In this document: one piece after another, positions 12,437 through 30,772 of the stretch
Layout of the letters: every line of letters begins with the position of its first letter
Position numbering within the stretch: the first letter of the stretch is position 1
Source: an uncultured Bacteroidota bacterium
Lineage (GTDB): Bacteria; Bacteroidota; Bacteroidia; Flavobacteriales; Flavobacteriaceae
Assembly: GCA_902512755.1 (NCBI GenBank)
Contig: CABXKB010000001.1
Location: 62,001 to 126,000 of the forward strand
Reading direction: 5' to 3'
DNA: 64,000 bases
Notes under the pieces: model-generated
The model's database searches: none
What the model was told of the DNA's origin: nothing
Seen by the model: only the letters and a program-made list of their open reading frames with translations
Translations under genes and position numbers: made by a program

Positions 12437-13984
12437 TTAAGAATTCATCGAAATTAAAAACTCTTCATTGCTTTGAGTTCTTGTAAAGCGATCATTTATA
12501 AATTCCATAGCCTCAACAGGGTTCATATCTGCTAAATACTTTCTCATGATCCACATCCGTTTTATAGTGTTTTCATCCAGTAATAAATCATCACGACGAG
12601 TACTTGATGAAACTAAATCAATAGCTGGGAAAATTCTCCTATTGGCAATTCGACGATCCAGTTGAAGCTCCATGTTTCCTGTTCCTTTGAATTCTTCAAA
12701 TATAACCTCATCCATTTTAGAGCCTGTTTCTGTTAATGCAGTTGCAATTATAGATAATGAGCCTCCATTTTCAATATTCCTAGCCGCACCAAAGAAACGT
12801 TTTGGCTTATGTAGAGCATTTGCGTCAACACCTCCACTGAGGATTTTTCCAGAAGCAGGCTGTACAGTATTATATGCTCTTGCTAAACGCGTAATGGAAT
12901 CCAAAAGAATAACAACGTCATGTCCACACTCCACAAGTCTTTTTGCTTTTTCCAAAACAATATTAGCAATCTTAACATGGCGTTCTGCAGGTTCGTCAAA
13001 CGTAGATGCGACAACTTCTCCATCTACATTTCTTTGCATGTCTGTAACTTCCTCTGGTCGCTCGTCAATCAATAAAATCAATTGGTAAACTTCAGGATGA
13101 TTTGCTGCTATTGCATTAGCAATGTCCTTAAGCAACATCGTTTTTCCTGTTTTTGGTTGTGAAACAATCATACCCCTTTGTCCTTTACCTATAGGGGAGA
13201 ACAAATCCATGATTCTACTAGAAATTGTACTTTGTTTATCGGCCAAATTAAATTTTTCTTCAGGAAAGAGGGGAGTGAGGTGTTGAAATGAAACACGGTC
13301 TCTAACTACTTTAGGGTCCAGACCATTGATCTTATTGACTTTAATTAGCGGAAAGTATTTTTCTCCTTCTTTTGGAGGACGAACAGATCCAAGAACAGTA
13401 TCGCCGGTTTTAAGTCCAAAAAGGCGAATTTGTGATTGAGAAACATAAACATCGTCTGGAGAAGAGAGGTAATTATAGTCTGAAGAACGCAAAAATCCGT
13501 AACCTTCAGTCATCATATCTAATACTCCTTCAGTTTCTACAATACCATCAAACTCAAAGTCAGGTTGCCGGTAGCGACTTCTATTATCTTTATTGTGATT
13601 ATTTTCACCACGATTTACGTTGTTGAAATTATTTTTTTGGTTCCCGTTTTTCTTGTATTTATTGTTCACTTGTCCTTCTTTCTTATGATGTGGTTTGCTG
13701 TCATCTTTATTATATGGAGTATTATTCTGTCTTGATTTATGAACTGGAAGAATCTTTTGAGAAACTTTCTTTTGGTCGTCAGATTTTTGGTTTTGAATAT
13801 TATCCTGGTTTTTTGGAGAAGCGGAAGCAGTAGTTTCTTCATCAGGTTTTGATGCAATGAAATCTACAATTTTATAGACCAGATCAAGTTTTTTCAATCC
13901 TGCAATACGTTTAACACCAATTTTTTTGGCAATTTCTTGTAATTCAGGTAGTTTCTTTGTTTTAAGAGTAGCTAATTCGTACAT
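12437..13984 (-). CDS. rho: transcription termination factor Rho
   Basis: Rho is the hexameric RNA helicase that ends untranslated transcripts. The 515-residue protein has a Rho_N helical domain (residues 1-47, [20 protein letters not shown]), then an insert of roughly 95 residues rich in Asn, Lys, Gln and His, a cold-shock-type RNA-binding domain (about 150-220, [20 protein letters not shown]) and the ATPase. Walker A is [14 protein letters not shown] and Walker B is [17 protein letters not shown]. Long polar inserts are common in Bacteroidota Rho and may affect RNA binding or condensation. It is convergent with rpsT and divergent from the DUF4293 gene. Confidence 0.96.
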
Positions 13985-26459: not shown

Positions 26460-26534
26460 GGTGGTTGTAGCTCAGTTGGTTAGAGCGCCTGATTGTGGTT
26501 CAGGAGGTCGTCGGTTCGAGACCGATCTTCCACC
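26460..26534 (+). tRNA. tRNA-His (GTG) with two mismatches in the acceptor stem
   Basis: The cloverleaf has a G at -1 (26460) facing C73 (26534), a D stem GCTC/GAGC, the anticodon stem CCTGA/TCAGG with loop TTGTGGT (anticodon GTG) and a T arm GTCGG-TTCGAGA-CCGAT. The acceptor 5' strand GTGGTTG faces CTTCCAC. Pairs 1-4 and 7 form, but 5-68 and 6-67 are T-T mismatches; the fully paired 3' strand would be CAACCAC. The G-1/C73 identity element argues that it was a genuine tRNA-His. An accessory region begins right after it. Confidence 0.85.
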
Positions 26535-26548
26535 CTCACTAAACAAAG

Positions 26549-26653: not shown

Positions 26654-26765
26654 TCCCCAAAAAATTCCAATCTAAAACTTTCAAATAAGACCCCCATCCC
26701 TAAAAATAAATCCACTTTTATTTTGAGACTAGTGCTGATATAATCGTATATAATCTAAACCATCT

Positions 26766-26819
26766 GCATATCCTCTTCATTAAGTTCAGGAAGAAAAACA
26801 CGGAGTAGAGATATTGTAG
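26766..26819 (+). repeat. island repeat, copy A (54 bp)
   Basis: This is the first of four copies of a sequence whose core reads AAACACGGAGTAGAGATATT. Copy A matches copy B (27608-27661) at 52 of 54 positions. It lies 13 bases beyond the 3' end of the minus-strand DUF218 gene, so unlike copies B, C and D it does not precede a gene in its own direction. Confidence 0.85.
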
Positions 26820-26831
26820 TTTTTAGGTATA

Positions 26832-27566
26832 TTAAATTCTATAATATAATCGTCCTAAAACTTCTCTTAATGCTATTTCGGTTTTTCTTAAACCCCCTGA
26901 ACTTGCTATAAAATCTATAAAGTTCCAACTTAATTTTGGCGGGGTTTTAAAATCAACTTTGTAAGGAATTACAATATGCCCTTGTTTTTCAAATAGTGAT
27001 TTTGCTCTACTCATATGAAACGCAGAAGTAACGAGAATAATAGTTCTTTTATTTCCAATTAAATCTGTTACTGCATATGATTCATCAGATGTATTTAATA
27101 CTTCTTTTGTAATTAAAATATCCTCTTTTTTAACGCCGAACCTTATAGCATATTCCTTTAAAATATCGCCTTCAGATGTTTTTGTCTTGTTGTATGGAGA
27201 TTTTCCTCCTGTGAAAATAATTATATTTGATTTATTAAAATTATAAAGTTCAATACCTTTAAAAAATCTGTCAGTATCCCCCCATTCTATCTTATAATCA
27301 TTCTCAAATTCATTTATTCTCATTATCCCACTTAATACGACAATTGCATCAGCTTTATTTTGATTTTCAAACTTTCCGAATTCATACTCACCCTCAACTT
27401 GTTTCATTATGAGATTTGAAAAAATAGGTGTTGATACAACATAAAATAAAAAAAGAGAGTAATAAGTTAATTTCTTGAAACCCTTGAAAGTGCTGAAAAG
27501 AATTATTAAAATAAATACCATTATAGGCATTACAAAAAGGGGAAGTATTTTGTGAAGAAATATCAT
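26832..27566 (-). CDS. YdcF/SanA-like DUF218 membrane protein
   Basis: This 244-residue protein has two N-terminal membrane helices (about 7-26 and 31-51) followed by a DUF218 domain facing the periplasm. Domain hallmarks are KADAIVVLSG (about 81-90), GDTDRFFKGIELYN, IIIFTGGKSPYN, the acidic TSEGDILKEYA, NTSDESYAV and VTSAFHMSRAKSLFEKQG with the conserved Ser/His-Arg pattern. Relatives such as SanA and ElyC act in envelope integrity and lipid-carrier homeostasis, but the activity is not defined. It stands alone between repeat copies A and B and is the first gene of the accessory stretch. Confidence 0.82.
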   Translation of the reverse strand: MIFLHKILPLFVMPIMVFILIILFSTFKGFKKLTYYSLFLFYVVSTPIFSNLIMKQVEGEYEFGKFENQNKADAIVVLSGIMRINEFENDYKIEWGDTDRFFKGIELYNFNKSNIIIFTGGKSPYNKTKTSEGDILKEYAIRFGVKKEDILITKEVLNTSDESYAVTDLIGNKRTIILVTSAFHMSRAKSLFEKQGHIVIPYKVDFKTPPKLSWNFIDFIASSGGLRKTEIALREVLGRLYYRI

Positions 27567-27607
27567 AACGTTTTTTGACCTAAATTAAATAAATAATTAT
27601 ATCAATA

Positions 27608-27661
27608 GCATATCCCCTTCATTAAGTTAAGGAAGAAAAACACGGAGTAGAGATATTGTAG
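27608..27661 (+). repeat. island repeat, copy B
   Basis: This 54-bp copy differs from copy A at two positions. It precedes the secreted-protein gene at 27704 and runs into a weak -7 box TATATTAG at 27669-27676, so it may contribute to a promoter or regulator site. Confidence 0.85.
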
Positions 27662-27703
27662 AGTTTTTTATATTAGCAACTTATTAATCATAAATCAATT
27701 AAA

Positions 27704-28435
27704 ATGAAAAAATTATTTTTATTAAGCATTTTACTGCTAATTACAAATCTTGCTGGAGCTCAGGTCATACAAGCTAGAGTTTTAGATATTGAACCTATGA
27801 ATTTAGAAAAAATGAAATCAGCAGTTGCTGAAAAAACTAAATTATATAATTCAAAAGAGGGTTCTACAAGGTTTTCAACATTTGAAATTCTATCTGGGCC
27901 AAATGCAAATAATTTATGGAGAGTACAACACGGAGAAGAAATTGGTGATTTTGATTCATCTGTAAGTAAAGAAGAATTAGATTATTGGTGGAAAACAACT
28001 GGAAAGTTACACACACCTCTTGCAAATCGCTTTTGGTATTTAAATAAAGACGCAACATATATCCCCGATGGTTATAAAAGACTGAATCATAGAAGAGTAA
28101 TTATTTATAAGTTAATCCCAGGTAAAGAAAAAGATTTTTGGAGGTACAGAACCAGATTATCAGTTGCAATGAAACAAGCTGGATGGAAAAACAGAGTAGG
28201 TGTTATGTCGTGTATGTCGGGATGCAATGGTAGTTGGGTGATGGTTAGATATCATCATAAAGACTTAGCTTCAATGCAAGATGAAAATTCTAATATGTTT
28301 TCAAATGTCGTGGATAAATACAATGAGCTCTATGGTAAAGAGTCCTATGATGACGATTACTTGAATATCCAATTATCAGTGTCTGAAAATATTTCACACT
28401 TTCAAAAGCTATTACCAGAGTTAAGCTCAAGATAA
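27704..28435 (+). CDS. secreted protein with two ferredoxin-like (ABM/Dabb-type) halves, function unknown
   Basis: This 243-residue protein has a signal peptide (KKLFLLSILLLITNLAGAQ). The mature chain appears to be duplicated: residues about 21-90 (VIQARVLDIEP, then RFSTFEILSGPNANNLWRV) and about 128-195 (RRVIIYKLIPGKEKDFW, then NRVGVMSCMSGCNGSWVMV) share the layout strand-helix-strand with a hydrophobic strand after a Gly/Asn turn. This recalls dimeric alpha-beta barrel domains of antibiotic-biosynthesis-monooxygenase type, but catalytic residues cannot be assigned. It shares its upstream repeat and the ATAAATCAATTAAAATGAAA start region with the lipoprotein gene at 28554 and has its own terminator. 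Confidence 0.65.
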   Translation: MKKLFLLSILLLITNLAGAQVIQARVLDIEPMNLEKMKSAVAEKTKLYNSKEGSTRFSTFEILSGPNANNLWRVQHGEEIGDFDSSVSKEELDYWWKTTGKLHTPLANRFWYLNKDATYIPDGYKRLNHRRVIIYKLIPGKEKDFWRYRTRLSVAMKQAGWKNRVGVMSCMSGCNGSWVMVRYHHKDLASMQDENSNMFSNVVDKYNELYGKESYDDDYLNIQLSVSENISHFQKLLPELSSR

Positions 28436-28449
28436 ATAATTATTATAAG

Positions 28450-28472
28450 CCCTCCCAAGCGGAGGGTTTTTT
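28450..28472 (+). terminator. terminator of the gene at 27704
   Basis: CCCTCC at 28450-28455 pairs with GGAGGG at 28461-28466 around CAAGC, followed by six T residues. The 24 bases from GGAGGG onwards recur exactly at the second terminator (29388-29411). Confidence 0.85.
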
Positions 28473-28478
28473 ATTACA

Positions 28479-28516
28479 GTTCAGTAAGAAAAAAAAGGAG
28501 TAGAAATATTACAGAG
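28479..28516 (+). repeat. island repeat, copy C (degenerate, 38 bp)
   Basis: GTTCAGTAAGAAAAAAAAGG and on to ACAGAG aligns without gaps to copies A/B with about seven mismatches. It starts 6 bases after the T tract of the preceding terminator and leads into the promoter box at 28522. Confidence 0.7.
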
Positions 28517-28521
28517 TTCCT

Positions 28522-28529
28522 TATATTTG
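28522..28529 (+). promoter_or_regulatory. -7 box of the TPR lipoprotein gene
   Basis: TATATTTG is a perfect TAnnTTTG box 24 bases before the ATG at 28554. It directly follows repeat copy C. A TTG at consensus spacing is not present; the repeat occupies that position. Confidence 0.5.
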
Positions 28530-28553
28530 AACACTAAACATAAATCAATTAAA

Positions 28554-29354
28554 ATGAAAAAAATTCTTCTAATCTTATTTACAGGTCTAATGATATCGGC
28601 ATGTAATAATCCTCAAAAAACATCATCTAAGTTTTCAGCGCCAGGACCAGGAAAATACATTGAATGGTTTGGTAATAATGAAATGGCAAATGAATTTGCT
28701 ATGATTGGAATGAGACACTTTATGAATGCTGAACAAGAAAAAGCTTATGCTTTTTTCGAAACAGCTCTTTCTTACGATTCTTCAATGTTTGCTCCACATG
28801 TTTGCCTAGCGGAAATGTCTTTAGACGGTTCTGAAAAACAAGAATACCATATATCGCAAGCGAAAAAGAATGTTGCAGAAAATAATGAGACATCTAAGGT
28901 TTTTGTTTCAATTTTAGACCAGAAGCCTGATGGTTACTGGGGCTATTTTGATTCCTCAAATGCGCATGAACTTTGGAAAAAAATGCATGAGCTTGAACCA
29001 AAAGGAAACTTCATAAAACAATTCTATGCGTGGACTATGAAAGATAAAGAACAAAGTATCGCAACTATTAATAAGTTTATAGCTAACGCAAAAACAAATA
29101 ATGAGTCTTATGAAAATCTACTTAACCTTTTGGGGTACAAATTGATGTCAAAAGGTGATATGGAAGGTGCTGAAAAAGTATTTTTAGACTATATTAAAGC
29201 CTACCCTGACGGATATAATGCATATGACTCAATGGGAGAATACTATTTAAAAAATGAAATGAATGAACCTGCAAAAGAGATGTACATGAAAGCTCTTGAA
29301 AAATATCAGTTTGCAAATAATGCGCGCAACGTAATTTCAAAAATGAGGGAATAA
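28554..29354 (+). CDS. TPR-containing lipoprotein
   Basis: This 266-residue lipoprotein starts at ATG 28554 (an upstream in-frame TTG at 28527 would ruin the signal peptide). The signal LLILFTGLMISAC gives a lipobox Cys at about 18. Tetratricopeptide-like helix pairs are seen at about residues 60-95 (EQEKAYAFFETALSYDSSMF) and clearly at the C-terminus (GDMEGAEKVFLDYIKAYPDG, then EMNEPAKEMYMKALEKYQ). TPR lipoproteins usually bind other proteins at the envelope. It is flanked by repeat copy C and a terminator nearly identical to that of the previous gene. Confidence 0.75.
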   Translation: MKKILLILFTGLMISACNNPQKTSSKFSAPGPGKYIEWFGNNEMANEFAMIGMRHFMNAEQEKAYAFFETALSYDSSMFAPHVCLAEMSLDGSEKQEYHISQAKKNVAENNETSKVFVSILDQKPDGYWGYFDSSNAHELWKKMHELEPKGNFIKQFYAWTMKDKEQSIATINKFIANAKTNNESYENLLNLLGYKLMSKGDMEGAEKVFLDYIKAYPDGYNAYDSMGEYYLKNEMNEPAKEMYMKALEKYQFANNARNVISKMRE

Positions 29355-29373
29355 TAAGAACAAATAATTATAT

Positions 29374-29399
29374 AAACCCTCCACTTGGGAGGGTTTTTT
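29374..29399 (+). terminator. terminator of the TPR lipoprotein gene
   Basis: AAACCCTCC at 29374-29382 pairs with GGAGGGTTT at 29388-29396 around ACTTG and continues in T residues. The sequence from GGAGGG to TTCAG (29388-29411) is identical to that behind the preceding gene. Confidence 0.85.
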
Positions 29400-29411
29400 A
29401 TTACAGTTCAG

Positions 29412-29614
29412 AAACTTCTAATTTTCTTAAATAAGTCAACCCTATATTCTTTGAGTTAGAGCACCTTTAACTCATTGATTTTATAGACTTTAACACCTGT
29501 TGCTATACCCACTTTTGTTAGGGGTTGTTTTCAGCCCTACAAGTATAACCCTCTGTCTCTTGATGTCTTAAAAAAACTAAGAATATGCCGATGATTTAGT
29601 AGTAACTTAATCTT
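29412..29614. other. intergenic stretch without recognisable gene
   Basis: All frames on both strands are broken by stops within about 25 codons. A short minus-strand frame reads GLKTTPNKSGYSNRC-like sequence without a start. Nothing can be assigned. It lies between the second terminator and the lipoprotein relic. Confidence 0.4.
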
Positions 29615-29782: not shown

Positions 29783-29903
29783 AGTATTGGTAAATAGTTG
29801 AGTAAATGTATGAATTTTGCAGATATTGTAAATTCCAACAGTATCTAAAAGAGGTGTAAAATGTGTTACATTGAAGCGTTGATTCTACTAATGTTATAAA
29901 ACT

Positions 29904-29945
29904 CTACAATATCTCTACTCCGTGTTTCTTCCTGAACTTAATGAA
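29904..29945 (-). repeat. island repeat, copy D (inverted, 42 bp)
   Basis: Read on the minus strand this matches copy A from TTCATTAAGTTCAGG to GATATTGTAG, apart from a two-base deletion in the A run. It points towards the lipoprotein relic at 29782, as copies B and C point to their genes. Confidence 0.85.
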
Positions 29946-30040
29946 AAGAGTTTGCGATAATTTAAATGCAGTAAATATGCAGTAAGCTATTACTTGTTGA
30001 ATTCATATTTTACTATACTTTTAATTTTTAAAAAACATAA

Positions 30041-30772
30041 ATGAAATCCTTTTACTTTATCGCTGTAATTTTTCTGTTATATATTAATATTTCGAAAGCT
30101 CAATGGCAGTATCGAACTGATGACAAACAGAATGAGATTATATCCGTCAATGATAAAAACAATAATTCATCCTTTTTGATAGAAAGAAAAAAAAATGGTA
30201 AAATTAATTTTTACATAAAAGGTGTTGGTGAAAGTGAATGTAAAATACAATCCATTGAGTTTAGATTTGATGGAATAAAAGATGTCTTGTTATTCAAGGT
30301 TGAAAAATCAGAAGAGAAAAAATTAAAAATTTTATATGACGACATAAATGGTTTAGGTTATTTAAAGTCTTTTTCAAAATTGGTAAAGGAAAGGAATTTC
30401 ATATATTCTCAATTTATCAATGTTTGTGGTATTAGCATTAATAAAAGATATAGTCTTAAAGGCTCTTCAAATGCCATAAATAAAATAAATTTGATACCAT
30501 TTCTAAATAAAACAATTAAAATTACAGAAGCCAAAATGGCTAAAATTAAATTTATTGAAAAGTCAATACCAAGATTAGAAACAAAAAATTTTCCTACTCA
30601 TAGATTAAGAGATATAAATCCATTGGATATTACCGAGGTTTATTGGAAATCATATCAAAATGACAAATATCATATTAAAATAAAACTTAAACTTAATGGT
30701 GAAAAAAGCAGAGAGCTATTTGGAAAATTCAAATTGTTTAAGCAAATTGATAAGATTAAATCAAGGTATTAA
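30041..30772 (+). CDS. secreted protein of unknown function
   Basis: This 243-residue protein has a signal peptide (KSFYFIAVIFLLYINISKAQ), so it is exported. The mature chain is Lys-rich, with strand-like sections such as SSFLIERKKNGKINFYIKGV and YHIKIKLKLNGEKSRELFGK. No known motif was recognised. One cysteine pair (about residues 67 and 129) could form a disulphide. It belongs to the accessory stretch after tRNA-His and is followed by two degenerate signal-peptide fragments. The low complexity and AT-rich codons fit a fast-evolving orphan. Confidence 0.6.
   Translation: MKSFYFIAVIFLLYINISKAQWQYRTDDKQNEIISVNDKNNNSSFLIERKKNGKINFYIKGVGESECKIQSIEFRFDGIKDVLLFKVEKSEEKKLKILYDDINGLGYLKSFSKLVKERNFIYSQFINVCGISINKRYSLKGSSNAINKINLIPFLNKTIKITEAKMAKIKFIEKSIPRLETKNFPTHRLRDINPLDITEVYWKSYQNDKYHIKIKLKLNGEKSRELFGKFKLFKQIDKIKSRY

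Follow-up and report, generated by a model that had tools for sequence, protein, structure and literature searches.

Tandem gene units in a Flavobacteriaceae genome point to an integron-like gene-swapping system without known integron parts

Introduction

Two neighbouring genes of an uncultured member of the Flavobacteriaceae encode different proteins and are enclosed by nearly the same flanks. What are these flanks, and how could different genes have come to lie between them? The window analysed here is the whole stretch of 64,000 nucleotides that contains both genes (G000:C1:62001-126000), taken from a 1.22-Mb draft genome (G000) that is 54.7% complete. A first-pass annotation of the window, made from the sequence, had described tandem forward units bordered by the junction of a terminator and a repeat, and had proposed that coding parts are exchanged between constant flanks.

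Results and Discussion

The array in the window

Two forward copies of the repeat lie at 26766-26824 and 27608-27666; the copy at 28461-28519 is weaker (66%), and the one at 29955-29898 is in reverse. The 23-base core of the repeat occurs three times in the window, none being expected from 100 shuffles. In the draft genome, nine copies of the core were counted at up to three mismatches: the three of the window, five on contig C8, where a longer array of the same kind adjoins a tRNA-Met gene, and one on C37. The repeated forward units and their common flanks were confirmed. An exact copy of the 24-base stretch GGAGGGTTTTTTATTACAGTTCAG is present at both 28461-28484 and 29388-29411, and the shared context in which both genes had been said to start is ATAAATCAATTAAAATGAAA, identical at 27690 and 28540. 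The features of the locus are as follows.

26461..26535, plus strand: tRNA-His, left edge of the variable locus (ARAGORN, Rfam tRNA)
26757..26790, plus strand: site 1, recombinase-tail copy and GTTCAGG; putative crossover G 26784; 36 bits with the nhmmer tail model
26784..27625, plus strand: unit 1, cassette with sites at both ends
26832-27566, minus strand: DUF218 gene of unit 1 (Pfam DUF218, 95.5 bits)
27607..27632, plus strand: site 2, tail copy; putative crossover G 27626; 22 bits with the tail model
27626..28478, plus strand: unit 2, type-a 5′ flank, promoter-like stretch, exported-protein gene and terminator
27704-28435 and 28450-28470, plus strand: gene (ORF) and terminator (pattern) of unit 2
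28461..28484, plus strand: site 3, short variant GGAGGGTTTTTTATTACAGTTCAG; putative crossover G 28479, placed by eye
28479..29405, plus strand: unit 3, TPR lipoprotein-like gene (28554-29354) and terminator (29377-29397, pattern)
29388..29411, plus strand: site 4, same short variant, where the forward array ends; putative crossover G 29406, by eye
29406..29439, minus strand: remnant of a recombinase 3′ end, ..LTYLRKLEVSEL and stop, abutting the array directly after site 4
29885..29955, minus strand: site 5, repeat in reverse; putative crossover G 29937; only 13 bits with the tail model

Site 3 has no tail-model score and was assigned from the exact 24-mer and its alignment with full-length tails. 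The remnant was found with a degenerate pattern written to cover both 29406..29439 and the intact genes; this pattern matches one place in the window at up to three mismatches (0 expected in shuffles), and tblastn of the intact recombinase protein gave no match to the remnant region at E≤1e-3. After site 5, a decayed lipoprotein unit can be read by eye on the minus strand. Further on, the exported protein encoded at 30041-30772 is 81% identical to that of L078:18672-19376 in genome G001, where it lies between two sites, so this gene may be a further cassette beyond the reversed site.

These features change the first description in several respects. The units are real, and the array starts one unit earlier, at 26784. 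The DUF218 gene of the first unit lies on the minus strand, and a reversed site is present at 29937. Finally, the cassette reading largely holds, with the general border at the GTTCAG that ends the 24-base stretch and not at the terminator. A strict hairpin-plus-T scan detected a terminator before only 17 of the 144 sites aligned below (0 in shuffles); a terminator is therefore no constant component of the unit. The hairpin by itself is an ordinary terminator, with 11 pattern matches at nine places in the draft, including these two. The 24-base stretch is not a terminator sequence spread over the genome, as it was found at these two places only (up to three mismatches in the 1.22-Mb, 54.7% complete draft; reversed control, 0).

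No common family was found for the two proteins, which had first been called unrelated: the gene at 27704-28435 has no Pfam family at E≤0.01, and 28527-29354 gave TPR matches below the cut-off. We rejected an Rfam RNA element, because among the five Rfam matches in the window at E≤1 the tRNA alone reached its gathering score. An ARAGORN tRNA-Arg call at 27175-27269, inside the DUF218 gene, is absent from the Rfam matches and probably false. The 93 nt between tRNA-His and site 1 (26660-26752) are 89% identical, in reverse, to L010:403-495 and also resemble stretches in L079, L106 and L170; judging from these matches, they are possibly the end of another mobile element.

The shared site and the 3′ end of a recombinase gene

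A total of 178 repeat hits in 43 loci was collected, and those reaching the middle of the repeat were aligned. Among the matches listed, the aligned repeats have one constant left part followed by differing right parts. Read in reverse complement, the shared site, TTAAATCATCGGCATATCCTCTTCATTAA joined to GTTCAGGAA, gives the end of a tyrosine recombinase gene, with its last ~11 codons and the stop codon (PELNEEDMPMI and stop). The other strand of the site reads (P)ELNEEDMPMI and stop, and the recombinase ends in ..GHSSINVSLTYLRALEVPELNEEDMPMI and stop; the left half of the repeat is the 3′ end of a recombinase gene.

The conserved stretch spans about -29 to +8 relative to the G of GTTCAG, as seen in 144 sites retained from 210 tail hits (at least 20 bits, enough flank, unique sequence). 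Loci L078 and L079 overlap, and one site is counted twice in both the repeat-hit and the tail-model lists. Three right-flank types were told apart by eye among the matches listed, and a motif rule assigned 73 sites to type a, 16 to b, 9 to c and 46 to no type (n = 144). Type a is the ..AACACGGAGTAGAGATATTGTAG.. block already seen in the first-pass annotation. By eye, and among the matches listed, the right part runs into a promoter-like stretch and the shared start context.

In the recombinase frame, 99/144 sites read as 11 codons then a stop, and 45/144 do not. This count is consistent with coding selection and is no proof of it: the sites are alike in sequence, so recurrent stops are found in the other two frames too, at 68/144 and 101/144. 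In at least five loci (L078, L110, L085, L102 and L105), the recombinase tail before GTTCAG is replaced by another sequence. The replacing segment reads ..LPRMKQATNEVSEDLPLF.. (L078:4559-4774, similar in the four others), and a 71-aa ORF in L078, for which no family was found, has this segment as its 3′ end.

The recombinase and its tail

The recombinase gene at L095:6460-7506 (G060) encodes 348 aa and adjoins a tRNA-Ala call. An array on the opposite strand has its first site in the last codons of this gene; the tail recurs there in six more copies at no more than 9/33 mismatches, or in seven more when counted with the tail model. L095 and L134 are the best such loci, the array beginning exactly in the last codons of the recombinase. 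An array adjoining the recombinase gene, which is an integron feature, is present in these two loci and in L132, where the gene is broken.

The protein scores as a phage-type integrase and not as IntI, with 43.8 bits (E = 3.1e-11) for Pfam Phage_integrase and 24 bits for the integron integrase model TIGR02249, the cut-off of which is 265. Nine aligned genes keep RPH.E, KS..NR, YSFRH, GHSS and LTY, so that the R, K, R, H and Y of the tyrosine recombinase superfamily are found in order in the catalytic domain. At the position of the usual HxxR motif, the nine genes have YSFR.

Further copies of the recombinase's own tail were detected in the locus for 12 of the 24 recombinase 3′ ends tested (0 in simple shuffles), all in the same orientation. 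No further copy was found at the other 12, where five contigs end within 120 bp and seven have 0.7-16.7 kb downstream. Five of the seven copies in L132, and the sole one in L178, are on the 5′ side of the gene. Some copies in L164, L171 and L180 carry 27-40 recombinase residues, and may be fragments of other gene copies and not cassette borders. The set left out L165, since its contig ends before the stop codon, as well as fragments lacking most of the gene; it includes L168 and L170, cut by the contig start, L181, which is a C-terminal match only, and the broken gene of L132.

Codons were compared in four genus genes picked for their common tail PELNEEDMPMI, the bodies of which share 47% protein identity. 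For shared residues, identical codons were counted in 54/54 cases in the tail (last 11 codons), 81/101 in the preceding stretch and 414/870 in the body, which suggests constraint on the DNA itself. Adding a fifth gene (L131) gave 78/82 for the tail versus 676/1470 for the body. With nine genes, five from the genus and four from another family, the contrast was weaker (161/252 versus 2537/5364) because the other lineages have their own tail.

Cassette contents

Cutting between neighbouring sites of the same orientation (at least 15 bits, 150-4500 bp apart) gave 120 units, three of which have no ORF of 50 aa, leaving 117. At least one of these units, L010:1845-3554, comprises two cassettes, as one weak site went undetected. 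The main ORF follows the array direction in 104/117 units and runs against it in 13/117, including the DUF218 gene of the window. According to a crude home-made rule, 88/117 unit genes look exported or lipoprotein-like. Family searches covered 106 proteins, namely 104 of the 113 unit ORFs of at least 60 aa (the nine omitted being mostly near-duplicates or short) and the genes of window units 2 and 3. Pfam detected 37 families, each in at most three members; PADLOC detected no defence family among the same 106 proteins, and defence cargo was rejected on this basis.

Cassettes shared between genomes and loci

Near-identical cassettes were found in different species and loci. Unit 2 has a counterpart at L107:8173-8979, in a G028 array beside tRNA-Ala, with 90.6% identity to 27665-28474 over 810 bp; unit 3 has one at L106:4087-4951, beside tRNA-Met in G026, with 97.6% identity to 28533-29398 over 866 bp. 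The core gene guaB shows 75% identity between the own genome and both G028 and G026. Similarly, 2524-3554 of L010 (G000) matches L103 (G030) at 97.2% over 1037 bp, with a guaB identity of 76%; cassettes of the own genome thus have 90-98% copies in relatives with 75-76% guaB identity. Moreover, L107 4993-5362 (tRNA-Ala) and L098 6373-6742 (tRNA-His) are 96.7% identical over 364 of 377 bp, L107 and L108 have two units in swapped order, and two G001 loci have a common unit at 94.8%. The guaB comparison covers pairs involving the own genome.

Alignment ends fall within 40 bp of a site in 78/244 cases (32%), versus a random mean of 3.1% and maximum of 7.4% (1000 draws). The count is based on an all-against-all comparison of loci between genomes, with 65 alignments (at least 300 bp and 80%, core-gene alignments included) and sites of at least 11 bits plus three window sites added by hand; of 260 ends, 16 close to the end of a locus were left out.

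In units 2 and 3 of the window, identity with the copies stops inside the constant flanks, which bears out the proposed exchange of coding parts between such flanks. After the terminator, the window has the short site variant ..TTTTTTATTACAGTTCAG, whereas a full tail follows it in the relatives, and the 5′ flanks of both units also differ from those of the L107 and L106 copies. The coding parts of units 2 and 3 and their present flanks appear to differ in origin. Since the units differ from their copies in both flanks, homologous exchange in the flanks, or decay, happens too. Among the matches listed for the loci fetched from relatives, the two genes were never found together outside the window.

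Distribution of the repeat and of the recombinase

The exact pattern GAAAAACANNGAGTAGAGATATTRTAG was found in ten stretches of the GTDB r220 contigs, all titled Flavobacteriaceae or Bacteroidetes MAGs; judging by isolate names, the cassette hosts are probably marine flavobacteria, and some of the records are probably single-cell genomes. At up to three mismatches, the core is present in 16/60 genomes, all members of the genus (37 of the 60, own included), and in 0/23 genomes from other genera of the order. A repeat model built from 13 own-genome copies matched 28/38 genus genomes at E≤0.001, some only near 1e-4. The units of the window are members of a cassette family that spans the genus and has mostly one gene per cassette.

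Recombinase homologues were detected in 14/38 genomes of the genus. Long genes without internal stops are present in G060, G032, G022, G018 and G016, the gene of G011 is broken, and fragments are found elsewhere; the match in G019 has only 25% identity and may belong to another family. In G016 and G032 the contig ends 19 and 99 bp past the stop codon of the recombinase, as would be expected if assemblies break at repeats. The genus search gave no homologue in G000 or G001. The latter genome (89% complete, four contigs) has 26 repeat matches, so arrays persist without this recombinase, or another enzyme acts on them. The only Phage_integrase match in the own draft is G000:C9:39527-39988, on a contig without listed repeats. 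In the whole order, the recombinase was found in 23/395 genomes (E≤1e-10), spread over four families distinct from that of the window, and in a phylum-wide draw in 3/395.

Proposed reaction and alternative explanations

We consider it likely that the locus is the relic end of an array served by a tyrosine recombinase that uses the 3′ end of its own gene as attachment site. A cassette would begin with R, a right flank with promoter-like sequence, and end with T, which copies the recombinase stop codon and last ~11 codons; between them lie one gene in most cases and a terminator in some. We infer that the recombinase performs the reaction, that the intermediate is circular and that a precise base can be named for the crossover; in the free circle, T and R would be joined at ..ATTAA/GTTCAGG. 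Recombination of the circle with the recombinase 3′ end would insert the cassette there, giving the recombinase the T of the cassette as its new C-terminal end and shifting the old T one unit outward, so that tandem arrays would grow beside the gene. Each insertion is predicted to swap the last ~10 residues of the enzyme, which presumably lie beyond the catalytic tyrosine. Insertion into the enzyme's own 3′ end would explain a site that ends at a stop codon, arrays at the recombinase 3′ end and recombinase lineages that differ in their site. In the window, where the recombinase is reduced to a remnant, the array would no longer be served locally, and an enzyme elsewhere could still act on it.

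Homologous recombination alone could also shuffle the units, the recombinase being an unrelated neighbour whose tail spread as a repeat. The repeats of 37-110 bp would supply the homology, the breakpoints of window units 2 and 3 lie inside the flanks and not at GTTCAG, and the repeat is found in 28/38 genus genomes while the recombinase homologue, often a fragment, is found in 14. We regard this explanation as unlikely, because arrays abut recombinase genes exactly at their last codons, the tail looks constrained as DNA inside these genes, alignment ends cluster within 40 bp of the sites, and the same site is followed by different 5′ flank types, leaving only ~37 conserved bp.

The repeat might instead be a promoter element of an exported-protein regulon and not a recombination border, since its right part enters the promoter-like stretch and start context and most unit genes (88/117, by the crude rule) are exported or lipoprotein-like. 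This is very improbable: 13/117 genes, including DUF218, run against the array direction, conservation is highest where the repeat corresponds to the recombinase tail and stop codon (about -29 to +8), and near-identical units are found in different species and loci. A regulon of promoters only was rejected on the gene directions and the tail match.

Integrons and superintegrons, such as the VCR arrays of V. cholerae, have IntI, attI and attC, the attC boxes reading RYYYAAC .. GTTRRRY. A divergent true integron with attC sites would account for the layout, with mostly single genes in one direction and a site at the 3′ end of each unit, and is the least credible explanation, membership being rejected on the integrase family (the TIGR02249 score above) and on the attC boxes, for which motif matching gave GTTRRRY at the crossover in 0/144 sites and RYYYAAC upstream in 8/144 (shuffled mean 16.8, range 8-28).

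Relation to known systems

The preferred reading, a recombinase that uses its own 3′ end as its site, points to an integron-like gene-swapping system without known integron parts. As in integrons, mostly single-gene cassettes of ~0.25-3 kb are arranged in tandem, mostly in one direction, with a conserved site at the cassette 3′ end and a tyrosine recombinase gene at the array end. Unlike in integrons, the recombinase is not IntI, the site lies inside its own 3′ coding end and no attC boxes were found by motif match in the 144 sites. Integron cassettes are promoterless and expressed from a common promoter, Pc, whereas the cassettes described here appear to carry their own promoters, to judge by eye from the promoter-like right flanks.

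According to PMC5704250, CIMEs and IMEs that lack an integrase of their own accumulate in tandem at the end of a target gene through site-specific recombination. The present units differ from the accretion described there in that the target would be the recombinase's own gene and most units hold a single gene. The additive flexible genomic islands of Methylophilaceae, in which the repeats are the last 20 bp of tRNA-Lys (PMC10872708), similarly combine small-genome aquatic bacteria, a variable island and a repeated attachment-gene end; here, the repeated end is a recombinase tail and not tRNA-Lys. Tycheposons are likewise tRNA-associated, have a tyrosine recombinase and are found in aquatic plankton. 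They are described in PMC10872708 as cargo elements of 4-200 kb, unlike the present one-gene cassettes with a recombinase-tail site. The array logic is nearer to 3′-end accretion (PMC5704250) and to tRNA-end additive islands (PMC10872708) than to the integron. No account of such a system was found in searches of an open-access library.

We suggest, tentatively and with slightly less than even confidence, that small-genome Flavobacteriales have evolved a gene-capture platform of their own, independently of the integron and parallel to it, in which the recombinase serves as its own landing site and its tail is replaced with each cassette. If so, the enzyme could also be tuned by the cassettes it mobilises, and if the reaction is confirmed, there would be a second route to integron-like arrays. 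The arrays offer a concrete, testable candidate machine for the continuing exchange of single genes among small-genome oceanic bacteria: a recombinase family and a ~37-bp site, with which the cassettes of any metagenome could be listed.

The tRNA-His locus in relatives

The oxidoreductase gene upstream and the TonB receptor gene downstream of tRNA-His lie on one contig in 12 genomes, own included. tRNA-His adjoins the oxidoreductase in 10/12; in G011 and G020 it lies on the opposite side of the region. The gap varies in content and ranges from 1.1 kb in G025, where a DUF4249 gene follows tRNA-His almost directly and no site was found, to 26 kb in G011, which has a broken recombinase and an array. 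The gaps of L185, L186, L190, L191 and L193 contain other genes and no recognisable site. The content of the locus varies among the 12 genomes, although some pairs, for instance G028 and G010, share their genes in order. The gaps without sites and the order shared by G028 and G010 indicate that the locus is also a general hotspot.

Possible carriers and neighbouring genes

Viral carriers were rejected, as the exact pattern GAAAAACANNGAGTAGAGATATTRTAG had no match in IMG/VR and the recombinase no confirmed relative in the viral contigs searched. Partial recombinase matches were limited to two phage records of one phage (25.9%) and one plasmid record (24.4%). Short Rep-like proteins (REP_ORF2-G2P, below the cut-off) are encoded in or beside an array at L078:9511-9789 and 13180-13458 (G001), and a DUF3987/BT4734 primase-like protein near the recombinase at L170:3435-5549 (G071); these proteins are hints at a replicating carrier for the cassettes. 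Finally, near the G018 recombinase, large genes at L131:5888-10582 resemble, by eye, a GHKL ATPase and a PD-(D/E)XK nuclease, and are perhaps a defence island.
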